Source: Cognatishimia activa
GTDB taxonomy: Bacteria > Pseudomonadota > Alphaproteobacteria > Rhodobacterales > Rhodobacteraceae
Assembly (NCBI RefSeq): GCF_017798205.1
Contig: NZ_CP060010.1
Span: 2,170,001-2,234,000, forward strand
Length of the DNA stretch: 64,000 nucleotides
Direction of reading: 5' to 3'
In this document: one piece after another, positions 12,103-18,836 of the stretch
Layout of the letters: each line of letters opens with the position of its first letter
How positions within the stretch are numbered: position 1 is the first letter of the stretch
Notes under the pieces: model-generated
Seen by the model: the letters and a program-made list of their open reading frames with translations, nothing else
What the model was told of the DNA's origin: nothing
Database searches by the model: none
Program-made: the position numbers and the translations under genes

Positions 12103-12528
12103 TTAGGCGGCGTCCGTATACGCCGCGTCTTTCATCATTGAGGCAATGCCGCGATAGGCCTTCTCCCAGGCCGCGATTTCCGCATCGGTTAACGTGCGGG
12201 GCGCCATATCCTCGACCGCTTGGATCAAAGCTTCGCCGACCAGATCGTAATGTTCCGCCTCGGCGTTGTAATTCACATGCCGCCGCCCAAGCCGCTTGAT
12301 CTTGCCGGTGAACAGCCAGGGTGTGCTGAGATTGTTCACAATGAACTCCAGCATGTCGCTGAACTTCTCGAGCTGGCCCGACATTTCCTCGGGAAACAGA
12401 TCGCGCGCAGCAGGCGTGTTGCGAAATAGGATGCGATAGAAGGCCTCGGCCAGATAGCCCTGCTGCAACTTGATGCCGCGATAGCTGTCTTGGATAAGTT
12501 TCACTTCGTCTTTGGTCAGATCTGCCAT
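12103..12528 (-). CDS. Single-domain bacterial globin in the nitrate operon
   Basis: 141 residues with the three-over-three globin pattern: CD1 Phe in DLFPEEM (F45), E7-type Gln (Q52) and proximal His H84 in LGRRHVNY followed by EHYDLVGEALI. It resembles the heme domain of flavohemoglobins but has no reductase domain. Start ATG 12528 is chosen because AGGAGAG lies 5 bases upstream; 10 extra codons are open further upstream. Single-domain globins inside nas operons are known in Bradyrhizobium (Bjgb), where they are linked to NO formed from nitrite. Inference: it captures or detoxifies NO leaking from nitrite reduction, with electrons from a shared reductase. Located between nrtCD and nirB. Confidence 0.82.
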   Translation of the reverse strand: MADLTKDEVKLIQDSYRGIKLQQGYLAEAFYRILFRNTPAARDLFPEEMSGQLEKFSDMLEFIVNNLSTPWLFTGKIKRLGRRHVNYNAEAEHYDLVGEALIQAVEDMAPRTLTDAEIAAWEKAYRGIASMMKDAAYTDAA

Positions 12529-12605
12529 GGACACTCTCCTCAAAAAGAGAGTGCACATTAGGCAGGCTGGCTTTCGAAAGTCTGAACATCGCTGGTCCCA
12601 AACCC

Positions 12606-15463: not shown

Positions 15464-16828
15464 TTAGCCTTGGACTTCTGCACCAACCACGGTTTGGCCA
15501 GACTTCAGACCAATTGGCAGGCTTTCCAGGTAAGCGTTCGGGGTGCGACCGTCGTATGCGATACCGTCAATGATGTCGGCTGCTGGGGTCGGCGCTTTGT
15601 AGCCGTCGCTGTCCCAAGGGAAGTCCGCTTCGTTCGCCAGACCTTCTTCGACCAGCAGCTTCGCGGCTTCGAGATAGATCTCAGGCTTGTAAACGGATTT
15701 CGCAACTTCGTCATACCAGCTGTCAGGCTTGGTCTCGGCGATCTGACCCCAGCGGCGCATCTGGGTCAGATACCAGATTGCGTCAGAGTAATAAGGGTAG
15801 GTCGCGTTATAGCGGAAGAACACGTTGAAATCTGGGACTTCGCGCTTGTCGCCTTTTTCATACTCGAAAGTACCGGTCATAGAGTTCGCGATAACCTCAT
15901 AGTCCGCGCCCACATATTCAGGGCGAGACAGGATTTCCACGGCTTCTTCACGGTTTGCGTTGTCGTTTTCATCCAGCCACATCGCTGCGCGGATCAGAGC
16001 CTTCACCACAGCTTTGGTGGTGTTCGGATACATCTCCGCAAATTCGTTGGTGATGCCGAAGACTTTCTCTGGGTTGTTCTTCCAGAGCTCATAGTCGGTG
16101 ATCACAGGCACGCCGATGCCTTTGAACACGGCCTGCTGGTTCCAAGGCTCACCCACGCAGTAGCCGTGGATCGTGCCCGCTTCCAGCGTTGCTGGCATTT
16201 GTGGAGGGGGGGTTACAGACAGGAAAACATCCGCGCCGATCTGACCGGAGATGTTTTCAGGAGAGTAGTAGCCTGGCTCCAGACCACCTGCCGCGAGCCA
16301 ATAGCGCAGCTCGTAGTTGTGGGTGGACACCGGGAAAACCATACCCATGTTGAATGGCTTACCTTCGCTGTTGAACTTCTCAACAACGGGGGCCAGAGCC
16401 TGAGCAGAAATCGGGTGCTGAGGGCGGCCGTCATCCATGGTTGGGATGTTTGGCTTCATCATTTCCCAAACTTCGTTGGAGACGGTGATGCCGTTGCCGT
16501 TGAGGTCCATAGAGAATGGGGTGATGATGTGGGCCTCGGTGCCGTAGCCGATGGTCGCAGCCAGAGGCTGACCCGCCAGCATATGCGCGCCGTCGAGCTG
16601 GCCGTCGATCACACCATCCAGCAGAACTTTCCAGTTCGCTTGTGCTTCCAGCGTCACGAACAGGCCTTCGTCGTCAAAGAAACCTTGTTCATACGCAACG
16701 GCCAAAGGTGCCATGTCCGTCAGCTTGATAAAGCCAAAGGTCAGCTCGTCTTTTTCCAGTTCCAATTCAGCCCAAGCAGGCGCTGCCAGTAATGTGGTCG
16801 CTGCCAGGATCGAAGCAATGTTTTTCAT
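15464..16828 (-). CDS. nrtA: Nitrate-binding protein of the ABC transporter
   Basis: Periplasmic nitrate (possibly nitrite) receptor of the NrtABCD system. 454 residues with a Sec-type signal peptide [20 protein letters not shown]; no lipobox Cys, so probably soluble. The mature part has the NrtA/CmpA family signatures [30 protein letters not shown], and [13 protein letters not shown]. First structural gene of the operon; its leader (16829-17085) carries the candidate NasT-binding hairpins. It is a paralogue of the cytoplasmic sensor NasS encoded just upstream. Confidence 0.94.
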
Positions 16829-16865
16829 GTCTTCTGTCCTCGTGGTTAAGCCCTGTTGGGCAAAA

Positions 16866-16910
16866 TAAAAAAAGCCGCCGACGCATTTGGCCCCAGGGAT
16901 AGGGGGTCAA
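16866..16910 (-). terminator. Candidate leader attenuator ahead of nrtA
   Basis: On the minus strand a G+C-rich stretch with CCCC...GGGG and GCC...GGC pairings ends in seven U residues (16873-16867), then A and four more U, 38 bases before the nrtA start. This is where a NasT-controlled terminator is expected. I could not find a long clean stem, so the exact fold is unresolved. Confidence 0.45.
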
Positions 16911-16959
16911 AGGTCGAGCGACTTTGCTCAGAGAGTTCCCAGAACTTTGGGAGGGAGGG

Positions 16960-16979
16960 ACACGACGCCGTTGTCGTGT
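16960..16979 (-). promoter_or_regulatory. ANTAR-target hairpin P2 of the nrtA leader
   Basis: Minus strand: ACACGAC-AACGGC-GTCGTGT, a 7-bp perfect stem with a six-base loop whose positions 1 and 4 are A and G. This is the loop rule of RNA hairpins bound by ANTAR proteins such as NasT and NasR. It sits between P1 and the candidate attenuator. Confidence 0.65.
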
Positions 16980-17042
16980 TGTTAATCATCTTATGCGACG
17001 CACCCCTAAGGCTGGCGAGTCCATTTCTTTAATTTTTCTGCA

Positions 17043-17064
17043 TTGCAGCGTTCATTCGCTGCAA
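17043..17064 (-). promoter_or_regulatory. ANTAR-target hairpin P1 of the nrtA leader
   Basis: Minus strand: TTGCAGCG-AATGAA-CGCTGCAA, an 8-bp perfect stem with a hexaloop again having A at position 1 and G at position 4. With P2 it makes the two-hairpin layout known for ANTAR antitermination. The 63-base linker to P2 is long. It could also be a DNA operator, since it follows a second dyad by one base. Confidence 0.6.
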
Positions 17065-17065
17065 C

Positions 17066-17082
17066 TGCACAAAAAATGTGCA
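17066..17082 (-). promoter_or_regulatory. Candidate NtrC-binding dyad
   Basis: TGCAC-N7-GTGCA, a perfect 17-base inverted repeat starting 3 bases after the nasS stop. The GCAC-N7-GTGC core is that of enterobacterial NtrC sites at glnA. No sigma54 promoter with correct spacing is visible downstream; in Rhodobacter NtrC works with sigma70, so this does not exclude it. Confidence 0.55.
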
Positions 17083-17085
17083 AAC

Positions 17086-18255
17086 CTACCGCTGAGGGTC
17101 AAAGGTTTGCCCGTCAAAGAAGCGGTTTTGCCCAAGACTCAGGCTGCCAGTTACCGCGCGCACCTCAGTCGACTCGGTGAGTCCGCCCTCGATTTTTGAA
17201 TTGCTCAACGGCATCGGCGCCCCCAATTGCCCCAAAGCACGGCGATAGAGGTCACTGCGAAAGATCTTGTGAACCTCGGAGGCCGCCACGTCGTCGACTG
17301 TCCCATGACGCGCCTTAAGGCGTTCGGCGATCCAATCGGCTTGTGATTGCCACGGAAAGGTAGCCCCCTCCGTGTGGAAACGCAGAAAATTGTCGTGATG
17401 CTTATTGGCCCCGGCACTGTTAAGCACCAAACGACCTGTCAAAGCCCGGTCAATCAGATCAGAGTTCACCCCCACATAGTCCTTTCGGGCCAAAACCTCT
17501 GCCAGAGCGACATGCTTGCTGGGCTGGTCCAACCATTGCCCCGCACGCCACAAGGCGCGGATCAACTTGAGCGCTGTGTCTTCGTTTTGCTCGGCCCAAT
17601 CTGCGCGTGTCGCCAAAACTTTTTCCGGCGCTGCCGTCCAAATCGCGGCCCCCGGCAGGATCAGCGTTCCGTTGGCTGTATCTACGGTGACAGACCCCCA
17701 AGGCTCTCCCACGCAAAAGATGTCGAGGTCTCCGTTCTTGATTGCTTGCGCCATCAAGGGCGGGGGTACGGCCTGGATCTGAAAGTCGTCTCCCGCCTTT
17801 AAACCCACAGCATTCAGCCAAATCGACACCAGTTCTGAATGCATGGACAGATAGAACGGCACGCCAATGCGCAAAGGTTTTGGCAGTGATGCAACCGCAA
17901 GCGCGGCCGCTTTGGCGTCTTTGAAATCAAACCCATAGCCGCGCACTTCCAGCAGGGCCGCCATATTGGGGCTGACGCCAATGACATTGCCATTCATGCT
18001 GAGAACCGACAGAACCTGCAATTTCGGCAGCCCGTTCATGAGTCCCAAATAAGAGGCCACGGGCACTGGCGACAACATATGCGCCGCCTGAATTTGCCCA
18101 AAGGCAAGTTGATCTCGAAGGGTGCTCCAACTGGGAGCACGTTCAAGCGACAGGTCGAGACCTTCTTCTTCTGCAAACCCGAGTTCTTTGGCGACGATCA
18201 AAGGGGCAGCGTCGACCAGGGGAATAAAACCGGCTGCGATCGGAGTAAGGCTCAT
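17086..18255 (-). CDS. nasS: Nitrate/nitrite sensor NasS
   Basis: 389 residues of the NrtA/CmpA family without a signal peptide (MSLTPIAAGFIPLVDAAPLI), so cytoplasmic. Family signatures include AHMLSPVPVA and FCVGEPWGSVTVD. In the NasS-NasT system NasS holds the antiterminator NasT in an inactive complex until nitrate or nitrite binds. Its ATG overlaps the nasT stop (ATGA, 18252-18255), fitting the 1:1 complex. The stop TAG lies at the head of the nrtA leader. The paralogous transport receptor NrtA next door has a signal peptide, which separates the two roles. Confidence 0.9.
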   Translation of the reverse strand: MSLTPIAAGFIPLVDAAPLIVAKELGFAEEEGLDLSLERAPSWSTLRDQLAFGQIQAAHMLSPVPVASYLGLMNGLPKLQVLSVLSMNGNVIGVSPNMAALLEVRGYGFDFKDAKAAALAVASLPKPLRIGVPFYLSMHSELVSIWLNAVGLKAGDDFQIQAVPPPLMAQAIKNGDLDIFCVGEPWGSVTVDTANGTLILPGAAIWTAAPEKVLATRADWAEQNEDTALKLIRALWRAGQWLDQPSKHVALAEVLARKDYVGVNSDLIDRALTGRLVLNSAGANKHHDNFLRFHTEGATFPWQSQADWIAERLKARHGTVDDVAASEVHKIFRSDLYRRALGQLGAPMPLSNSKIEGGLTESTEVRAVTGSLSLGQNRFFDGQTFDPQR

Positions 18256-18836
18256 GACAAAAGCTCCGAGGCCGTGACCAGCGCCTGGGCAACATCCGCC
18301 ACGCGCTTGCTCTGATCCATCGCGGTTTTACGCAGCAGGGCATAGGCCTCCTCTTCGCCAACGCCGCGAGCTTTCATTATTATGCCTTTGGCCCGATCCA
18401 CGATCTTGCGCTCCTCAAGCGCGCGTTTGGTGGTTTCCAATTCCGTGCGCATGCGCTGGAACATCTGAAACCGCGCAATGGCGGCGTCGAGGATGGGTTT
18501 GATCCGGTCATTTTGCAGCCCATCGACGATATAGGCCGAGACACCGGCCTCAATCGCTGCCTTGGTCAGTTGCGCATCGGAGCGATCTACGAACAGCGCA
18601 ACCGGGCGCTCTAAAGGATCGGAGGCCAAAGCCAGTTGTTCGATCGCGTCGCGCGATGGATCGGTGACGTCGACCAGGACAACATCCGGGGCAAAACGCG
18701 CGACAGAGCGCGCCAAGCCGCTGACCTCGGAAAGCACGTGGATCTTGTGTGATCCGGTCTCAGCTAAGGAATCGACAATCGCGCAGGCGCGATCCCGATC
18801 TTTCTCGACGACAACGATGGTGAGGTTCTCTGACAA
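18252..18836 (-). CDS. nasT: ANTAR-domain transcription antiterminator NasT
   Basis: 194 residues: a receiver-like domain (1-120) and a C-terminal ANTAR RNA-binding domain (about 125-190, ALEERKIVDRAKGIIMKARG then EEEAYALLRKTAM). The receiver region keeps an Asp in VVLVDVTDPS, but the usual acidic pocket is altered (VVVEKDRD), as in other NasT proteins controlled by NasS, not by phosphorylation. The start is TTG (18836); an in-frame TAA lies 6 bases upstream and no ATG is near, so TTG is needed. Expected target: the hexaloop hairpins in the nrtA leader. Confidence 0.9.
   Translation of the reverse strand: MSENLTIVVVEKDRDRACAIVDSLAETGSHKIHVLSEVSGLARSVARFAPDVVLVDVTDPSRDAIEQLALASDPLERPVALFVDRSDAQLTKAAIEAGVSAYIVDGLQNDRIKPILDAAIARFQMFQRMRTELETTKRALEERKIVDRAKGIIMKARGVGEEEAYALLRKTAMDQSKRVADVAQALVTASELLS

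Follow-up and report, generated by a model that had tools for sequence, protein, structure and literature searches.

The DNA analyzed here is a single stretch of 64,000 nucleotides, which we refer to as the window. On its minus strand, the gene order is nasT, nasS, a 257-nt gap, nrtA, a nitrate-permease-like gene, a nitrate-ATPase gene, and nirB. The genes around the gap are as follows.

18255..18836, minus strand: nasT, ANTAR-domain RNA-binding protein (PF03861, E 5.3e-21)
17086..18255, minus strand: nasS, nitrate/nitrite sensor and partner of NasT (PF13379), assigned by position and NMT1-like fold
15464..16828, minus strand: nrtA (PF13379), which heads the regulated operon for nitrate uptake

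The nasS-nrtA gap contains a predicted NasT (ANTAR) antitermination leader. An original prediction, made for this gap from the sequence, named the NasT system, the strand, the protein, and the target gene, and these stand: NasT has an ANTAR domain and is the sole ANTAR match found in its own genome, it is encoded directly upstream of the leader, and the leader is conserved before nrtA. The stretch from 16850 to 17090 (241 nt) has a folding z of -3.24, and only 1 of 200 shuffles was equally stable. Further along the same operon, between the nitrate-ATPase gene and nirB, there is a small reading frame (window 12103-12558) that we named globin-like by eye.

We searched 198 genomes of the family, found a nasS match in 89, and took 70 nasS loci, including that of the window, for comparison. 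An nrtA-like match lies downstream of nasS in 68 of the 70 loci. The nrtA-like alignment begins 214 to 486 nt past the nasS stop codon, except in one locus (L055), where it begins after 885 nt, at residue 207; identity is approximately 32% in four loci (L045, L054, L057, and L060). From the 68 gaps, 66 contained a GC[N6]GC candidate for the hairpin that we call P2, and 61 of those also contained a first hairpin, P1, under a rule requiring A at loop position 1 and G at loop position 4 (A1/G4). A MAFFT alignment was made of 45 of these 61 leader segments.

Outer hairpins and terminator

Four elements of the window leader, in order of transcription, are discussed below.

16960..16979, minus strand: P1, putative first ANTAR hairpin, ACACGAC[AACGGC]GTCGTGT, -9.1 kcal/mol; called "P2" in the original prediction
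16937..16952, minus strand: Pm, middle hairpin, TCCC[AAAGTTCT]GGGA, degenerate in the window
16915..16930, minus strand: P2, putative antiterminator hairpin, TGAGC[AAAGTC]GCTCG, overlapping the 5' arm of the terminator; absent from the original prediction
16867..16924, minus strand: predicted intrinsic terminator, a long bulged stem of -22.9 kcal/mol with a U-tract at 16873-16867

Many relatives have a counterpart of P1 at a similar place in the gap, with differing stems, and a further A1/G4 hairpin downstream of it. We sought P2 as GC[N6]GC before a T-run and chose among candidates by pairing with the terminator arm, applying no loop rule, which avoids circularity; the P2 loops found this way have A at position 1 in 63 of 66 leaders and G at position 4 in 65. 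P1 was also picked without a loop rule, as the best hairpin with any loop of 4 to 8 nt, and was obtained for 63 of the 66 leaders. Hexaloops account for 43 of these 63 picks, and 41 of the 43 have both A1 and G4. In the 45-leader alignment, the closing C:G pair is present in 44 leaders for P1 and in all 45 for P2, and 91.5% of cells are paired in the P1 stem and 93.8% in the P2 stem. Changes on both sides occur in four of the six P1 pairs. P2 hardly varies; therefore, its support is sequence conservation, not covariation.

Considering P1, Pm, and P2 together, covariation is 0.402 compared to 0.162 ± 0.014 in shuffled alignments (0 of 500 as high) and no more than 0.123 in slid versions of the structure. 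Of the five measures applied to this alignment, two do not stand out from shuffles: the number of pairs with both-sided changes (6 versus 6.3 shuffled, with 423 of 500 as high) and the number of pair types (31 versus 27.9, with 32 of 500 as high). As judged from the alignment, P1 carries most of the compensatory signal.

The U-rich tract that had been reported just before nrtA was located at 16873-16867. The remark that the terminator stem is "not clean" is accurate in that the stem is bulged and that a simple consensus scan of the window leader found zero terminators (the same scan found no sigma-70 promoter); nevertheless, the terminator pairs hold in relatives. Across alignment columns 71-83 with 124-136, 84.9% of cells are paired, covariation is 0.245 versus 0.159 ± 0.010 in shuffles (0 of 500 as high), and six pairs have both-sided changes versus 3.6 in shuffles (2 of 500 as high). 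We also sought a conserved -10 element at a fixed distance from P1 in the leaders and found none.

P2 occupies columns 65-80, of which columns 71-80 are common to P2 and the terminator, and both helices are conserved; because of this overlap, the two folds are mutually exclusive. The base at P2 loop position 3 and the base that it pairs with in the terminator vary in concert (AU in 27 and GC in 13 of 45 leaders). In predicted folding of the window leader, the pair probability of P2 is 0.85 to 1.0 for transcript ends from 16915 to 16880 and 0.01 at 16874, and the terminated state (-39.0 kcal/mol) is favored over the state with P1 and P2 (-33.4 kcal/mol) by 5.6 kcal/mol. An antiterminator that must be held in place by a protein is expected to behave as in this predicted switch. 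The overlap, the conservation of both helices, and the folding switch all point to a last hairpin that excludes the terminator.

The middle hairpin and the proposed switch

The P1-P2 linker is 29 nt in the window and 19 to 42 nt in an automatic listing of relatives, in which some rows took the middle hairpin for P2. The window value lies outside the 2 to 25 nt used for dual-hairpin targets in a survey of actinobacteria (PMC8164766) and the 5 to 12 nt of the E. faecalis eut targets. Given that the linker exceeds both ranges and that a further hairpin lies between P1 and P2 in most relatives, we class the leader as a variant, not as a standard dual-hairpin member.

We counted middle hairpins in two genome sets, using 78 of 79 leaders in the first and 67 of 73 rows in the second, where six rows had no P2 by pattern. 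Sequences inside each set are related, and the two sets overlap; therefore, counts from them are not independent. When any loop sequence was accepted (loop of 6 to 7 nt, C-G closed, stem of at least 4 bp), Pm was found in 55/78 and 46/67 leaders. The first base of these unrestricted loops is G in 21/55 and 6/46, and a purine at position 1 and G at position 4 occur together in 44/55 and 29/46. Under a rule requiring that combination (R1/G4), with loops of 6 to 7 nt and stems of at least 4 bp, Pm was found in 46 of 78 linkers, compared to a mean of 2.6 and a maximum of 9 in 200 shuffles. With loops of 6 to 8 nt and stems of at least 3 bp, the R1/G4 rule detected Pm in 64/78 leaders of the first set (shuffled mean 10.1, maximum 19, 100 shuffles) and 52/67 of the second (shuffled mean 9.1, maximum 17), leaving 14/78 and 15/67 leaders in which Pm is missing by this rule.

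Pm is the least conserved part of the structure, with 76.0% of cells paired in the 45-leader alignment. In the window, Pm keeps A1/G4 when read with an 8-nt loop; the folding program closes an extra A-U pair, which leaves the loop AAGTTC. This extra pair removes G4, so Pm is degenerate here, and the A1/G4 hexaloops of the window leader are those of P1 and P2, not that of the middle hairpin. In many leaders, including that of the window, additional pairs within the loop are predicted by the folding program, and such pairs would hide an R1/G4 reading. Canonical Pm hexaloops are present in some relatives.

The distance between loop starts is 26 to 30 nt from P1 to Pm in 50/64 and 46/52 leaders (24 in the window), 20 to 22 nt from Pm to P2 in 45/64 and 39/52 (23 in the window), and 45 to 51 nt from P1 to P2 in 57/78 and 55/67 (47 in the window). 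The P1-P2 spacing is thus approximately twice the 24 nt of the two-hairpin target in Enterococcus faecalis, and Pm splits it into near-normal steps. The eut targets of that species are described with two hairpins and a linker of 5 to 12 nt, the eutP loop step being 24 nt, from A29 to A53 (PMC3369931). Altering the linker there is reported to have eliminated activity or lowered it strongly, and lengthening it by 20 nt abolished antitermination by EutV (PMC3369931, PMC8934654). As described, EutV targets share with the window leader both the A1/G4 hexaloops and a last hairpin inside the terminator stem (PMC3369931, PMC8934654); they differ from it in that the first and last loops of the window leader are 47 nt apart and have another hairpin between them. 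Overall, the switch is apparently built from three hairpins rather than the textbook two, and the two-hairpin count of the original prediction had overlooked the hairpins at 16930-16915 and 16952-16937.

P1 and the terminator are conserved and covary, P2 is conserved and overlaps the terminator, and Pm is present in most relatives. We consider it likely that the leader is a NasT-controlled antitermination switch in which P1 serves for loading, P2 competes with the terminator, and Pm acts as a stepping stone or bridge. Without nitrate, NasS would hold NasT, and RNA polymerase would halt at the terminator (16924-16867). With nitrate, freed NasT would load on P1 as it emerges from the polymerase and would end on P2. 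The terminator takes its 5' arm from the loop and 3' arm of P2; P2 held by NasT would therefore prevent the terminator from forming, and the genes from nrtA to nirB would be transcribed. Because P1 and P2 are approximately twice as far apart as the hairpins of two-hairpin ANTAR targets, Pm would bridge them. In Paracoccus, nitrate is described as splitting NasS-NasT, with NasT binding the nasA leader (PMC3795266); for the window, we infer both the binding of NasT to the RNA and the role of Pm.

It is a real possibility, though short of probable, that only P1 and P2 bind NasT and that Pm, as a spacer, simply brings the two closer together, its loop sequence being irrelevant. Such a role would suit the loop length of Pm, which is 7 to 8 nt in 35/64 and 39/52 leaders, and the A at Pm loop position 4 in two leaders with a shorter linker (L068 and L071); furthermore, NasR is described with two hairpins in SELEX and binding tests (PMC7496416). 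An irrelevant loop is harder to reconcile with the base composition at position 4, because Pm loops found without a loop rule have G there in 47/55 and 33/46 leaders versus 22 to 23% G in linkers. It also sits poorly with the three A1/G4 hexaloops present in 8/78 and 9/67 leaders. Three such hexaloops also occur in Paracoccus versutus (L175) and in a locus from another family (L217). In the switch that we prefer, with Pm as a stepping stone or bridge, Pm would presumably bind NasT itself.

A broader proposal, which we offer tentatively and regard as improbable on balance, is that the nitrate leaders of alphaproteobacteria are ANTAR RNAs with three sites. These would work either by handover of NasT along the hairpins in two near-canonical steps or by simultaneous occupancy of all three loops by a free NasT hexamer (three dimers), so that antitermination would succeed over a span too wide for a two-hairpin target and would be more cooperative.

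Hairpins at class- and phylum-level loci were listed without a shuffle control. One such class-level locus from another family (L226, hairpins at 194, 224, and 248) has three hexaloops with a purine at position 1 and G at position 4 before a relative of nrtA, spaced 30 and 24 nt apart.

Distribution and known systems

We built a covariance model from the 45 aligned leaders. It recovers the leader from 23 of 25 loci outside the building set (E ≤ 0.0016), missing L030 and L045; in the genome of L030, the leader is placed further on, before nrtA. The model also matches 71 of 80 NasT loci of the second set (E ≤ 0.01) and 10 of 289 sampled genomes of the class (E ≤ 0.01), weaker matches among them. 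At E ≤ 0.001, it matches 70 of 197 sampled genomes of the family, so the corrected anatomy given here applies to a nitrate switch of that reach. The window's own genome has one strong match (71.2 bits), and the next scores 16.0. Rfam searches at the gathering score and at E ≤ 5 returned no relevant family. In one genome (G188), the leader lies just before nrtA though approximately 2 kb from nasS (L089:1789-1896).

Seven genomes carry a second copy of the leader (G071, G088, G092, G161, G188, G192, and Rhodobacter maris, L176). Six of the seven are not directly behind nasTS and precede siroheme-synthase or uroporphyrinogen-III methyltransferase (cysG-type) genes (L091:1503-1601, L176:5642-5741, L262, L263, L264, and L265), with the gene named from the reading frame only in L176 and L265. 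The seventh (L266), a weak leader match of 28.7 bits, precedes a NirB-like gene that is below the family cutoff. Assimilatory nitrite reductase uses siroheme as its cofactor; therefore, a leader before siroheme genes fits a NasT regulon, to which siroheme synthesis would likely belong in some genomes.

These second copies also bear on whether NasT controls the gap at all. Since a terminator does lie downstream of nasTS, the region could instead be an ordinary end to that transcript plus a promoter for nrtA, free of NasT control. We regard this as very improbable, given that the P1 and P2 loops are conserved, that the P1 stem covaries, that leader copies precede cysG-type genes elsewhere, and that NasT is reported to bind the nasA leader of Paracoccus denitrificans (PMC3795266).

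The P. denitrificans nasA leader is among the closest described counterparts: as in the window, it sits between nasTS and the structural operon, and the regulator is the same (PMC5424462). The report on it places two hairpins, HI and HII, 137 and 91 bp upstream of nasA (PMC5424462). In strain DSM 413, with the nasA ATG that we chose, the folded hairpin that includes P1 ends 137 bp before it and the one that includes P2 ends 91 bp before it, and the published HI and HII thus appear to be the outer two hairpins. That leader is described with two hairpins (PMC5424462), whereas DSM 413 has a third hexaloop, TCGC[AATGAT]GCGG, between them. According to the same report, expression on nitrate was severely diminished when HI was mutated, and chromosomal replacement of HI abolished growth on nitrate, whereas mutation of HII left expression on nitrate relatively unaffected and raised expression on ammonium 2-fold (PMC5424462). 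The weak HII phenotype, as described there, is not predicted by the simplest model. A clear U-tract terminator is present in the window leader, whereas no T4 run closely follows P2 in the leader that we take to be the P. denitrificans counterpart (L167, gap after 7754). Given this absence and the HII phenotype, termination may proceed differently in Paracoccus, and the published mutants are open to reinterpretation and extension. NasT freed by nitrate is described there as having a form that broadly fits a hexamer (PMC3795266).

The nasF leader of Klebsiella, the target of NasR, shares nitrate-responsive ANTAR antitermination with the window leader, and hairpins with C:G closing and A1/G4 loops are described as selected in vitro; NasR differs in being a one-component sensor with two hairpins, whereas the window has NasS-NasT (PMC7496416). 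A survey of actinobacterial ANTAR targets describes two hairpins with a linker range of 2 to 25 nt (PMC8164766). Within the open-licence literature, as far as its accessible text extends, we found no three-hairpin ANTAR target; on that basis, the kind of switch is known (ANTAR antitermination by NasT), and the three-hairpin layout is a new variant. This layout suggests that two hairpins are not the upper limit for ANTAR regulation. Because the published ANTAR searches considered here assume two hairpins, one search allowing a linker of at most 25 nt, such arrays could be missed or half-described.

Beyond the class, 11 loci were listed, and hairpin arrays are present in four. Two-hairpin loop spacing is 22 to 23 nt in three loci from outside the class (L267, L269, and L274), compared to 18 to 19 nt in three class-level loci (L206, L207, and L208). 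In L277, one of the four with arrays, 55 nt separate two hexaloops, and no R1/G4 hairpin with a stem of at least 4 bp is listed between them.

The region upstream of P1

Three features lie between nasS and P1.

17042..17065, minus strand: inverted repeat, GTTGCAGCG[AATGAA]CGCTGCAAT, -13.0 kcal/mol, with an A1/G4 hexaloop; called "P1" in the original prediction
17038..17048, minus strand: candidate PhaR-type site, CTGCAATGCAG, an exact match to CTGCNNNGCAG, overlapping the 3' arm of the inverted repeat
17066..17082, minus strand: TGCACATTTTTTGTGCA palindrome right after nasS, TGCAC-N7-GTGCA

The original prediction paired this repeat with the hairpin at 16979-16960. Both hairpins are present as it gave them, on the minus strand, perfect, with loops AATGAA and AACGGC that follow A1/G4. 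A hexaloop with a stem of at least 9 bp arose in 143 of 5,000 shuffles of the 103-nt upstream segment, and one that also follows A1/G4 arose in 10 of 5,000 further shuffles. Among the 61 upstream segments, an A1/G4 hexaloop hairpin with a stem of at least 7 bp occurs in one, that of the window itself; on this lack of conservation, we reject the repeat at 17065-17042 as an ANTAR hairpin. Conservation of the loops in relatives, which had been proposed as a deciding observation, fails for 17065-17042 and holds for 16979-16960, whose true partner is the missed hairpin at 16930-16915, in the terminator arm. The reported 63-base linker separates the two originally paired hairpins (62 nt, 17041-16980) and is an artifact of that pairing, since the true partner overlaps the terminator; the linker is longer than usual all the same, at the 29 nt between P1 and P2. 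That the two hairpins nevertheless form an ANTAR motif with a 63-nt linker, as their existence and A1/G4 loops might suggest, is most unlikely, because the upstream one is confined to the window and bears a PhaR-type DNA site in one arm, and neither overlaps the terminator, whereas a conserved further A1/G4 hairpin does.

CTGCNNNGCAG is quoted as the PhaR site of Rhodobacter sphaeroides (PMC12542648), and the window shares it exactly at 17048-17038, a candidate PhaR operator in the promoter region. An exact CTGCNNNGCAG is present in 16 of 61 upstream segments, compared to a mean of 0.34 and a maximum of 1 in 50 shuffles, and in none of the 61 downstream segments. With one mismatch allowed, the counts are 42/61 upstream (shuffled 5.8, maximum 12) and 5/61 downstream. 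TGCNGCA words occur in 45/61 upstream segments (shuffled mean 6.5, maximum 15). Because the inverted repeat is not conserved, the motif is enriched, and the PhaR-type site overlaps it, the repeat is probably promoter or operator DNA and not part of the RNA switch. The enrichment of the motif upstream of nrtA leaders across the family hints that PhaR, a regulator of carbon storage, also acts on nitrate uptake, which would be a possible link between the two processes.

A related 15-base pattern occurs 13 times in the window's own genome, versus three times for a reversed-pattern control. We inspected the surroundings of five of the 13 sites (L110, L115/L116, L118, and L121). One is beside phasin-like (phaP-like, just below the Pfam cutoff), phaC, and phaR genes; two are before a thiolase gene; one (L121) is inside another reading frame; and one (L118) is in no telling place.

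The TGCACATTTTTTGTGCA palindrome at 17082-17066 resembles what we take to be the consensus of an NtrC site. The exact form TGCAC-N7-GTGCA is present in two of the 61 leaders, including that of the window.
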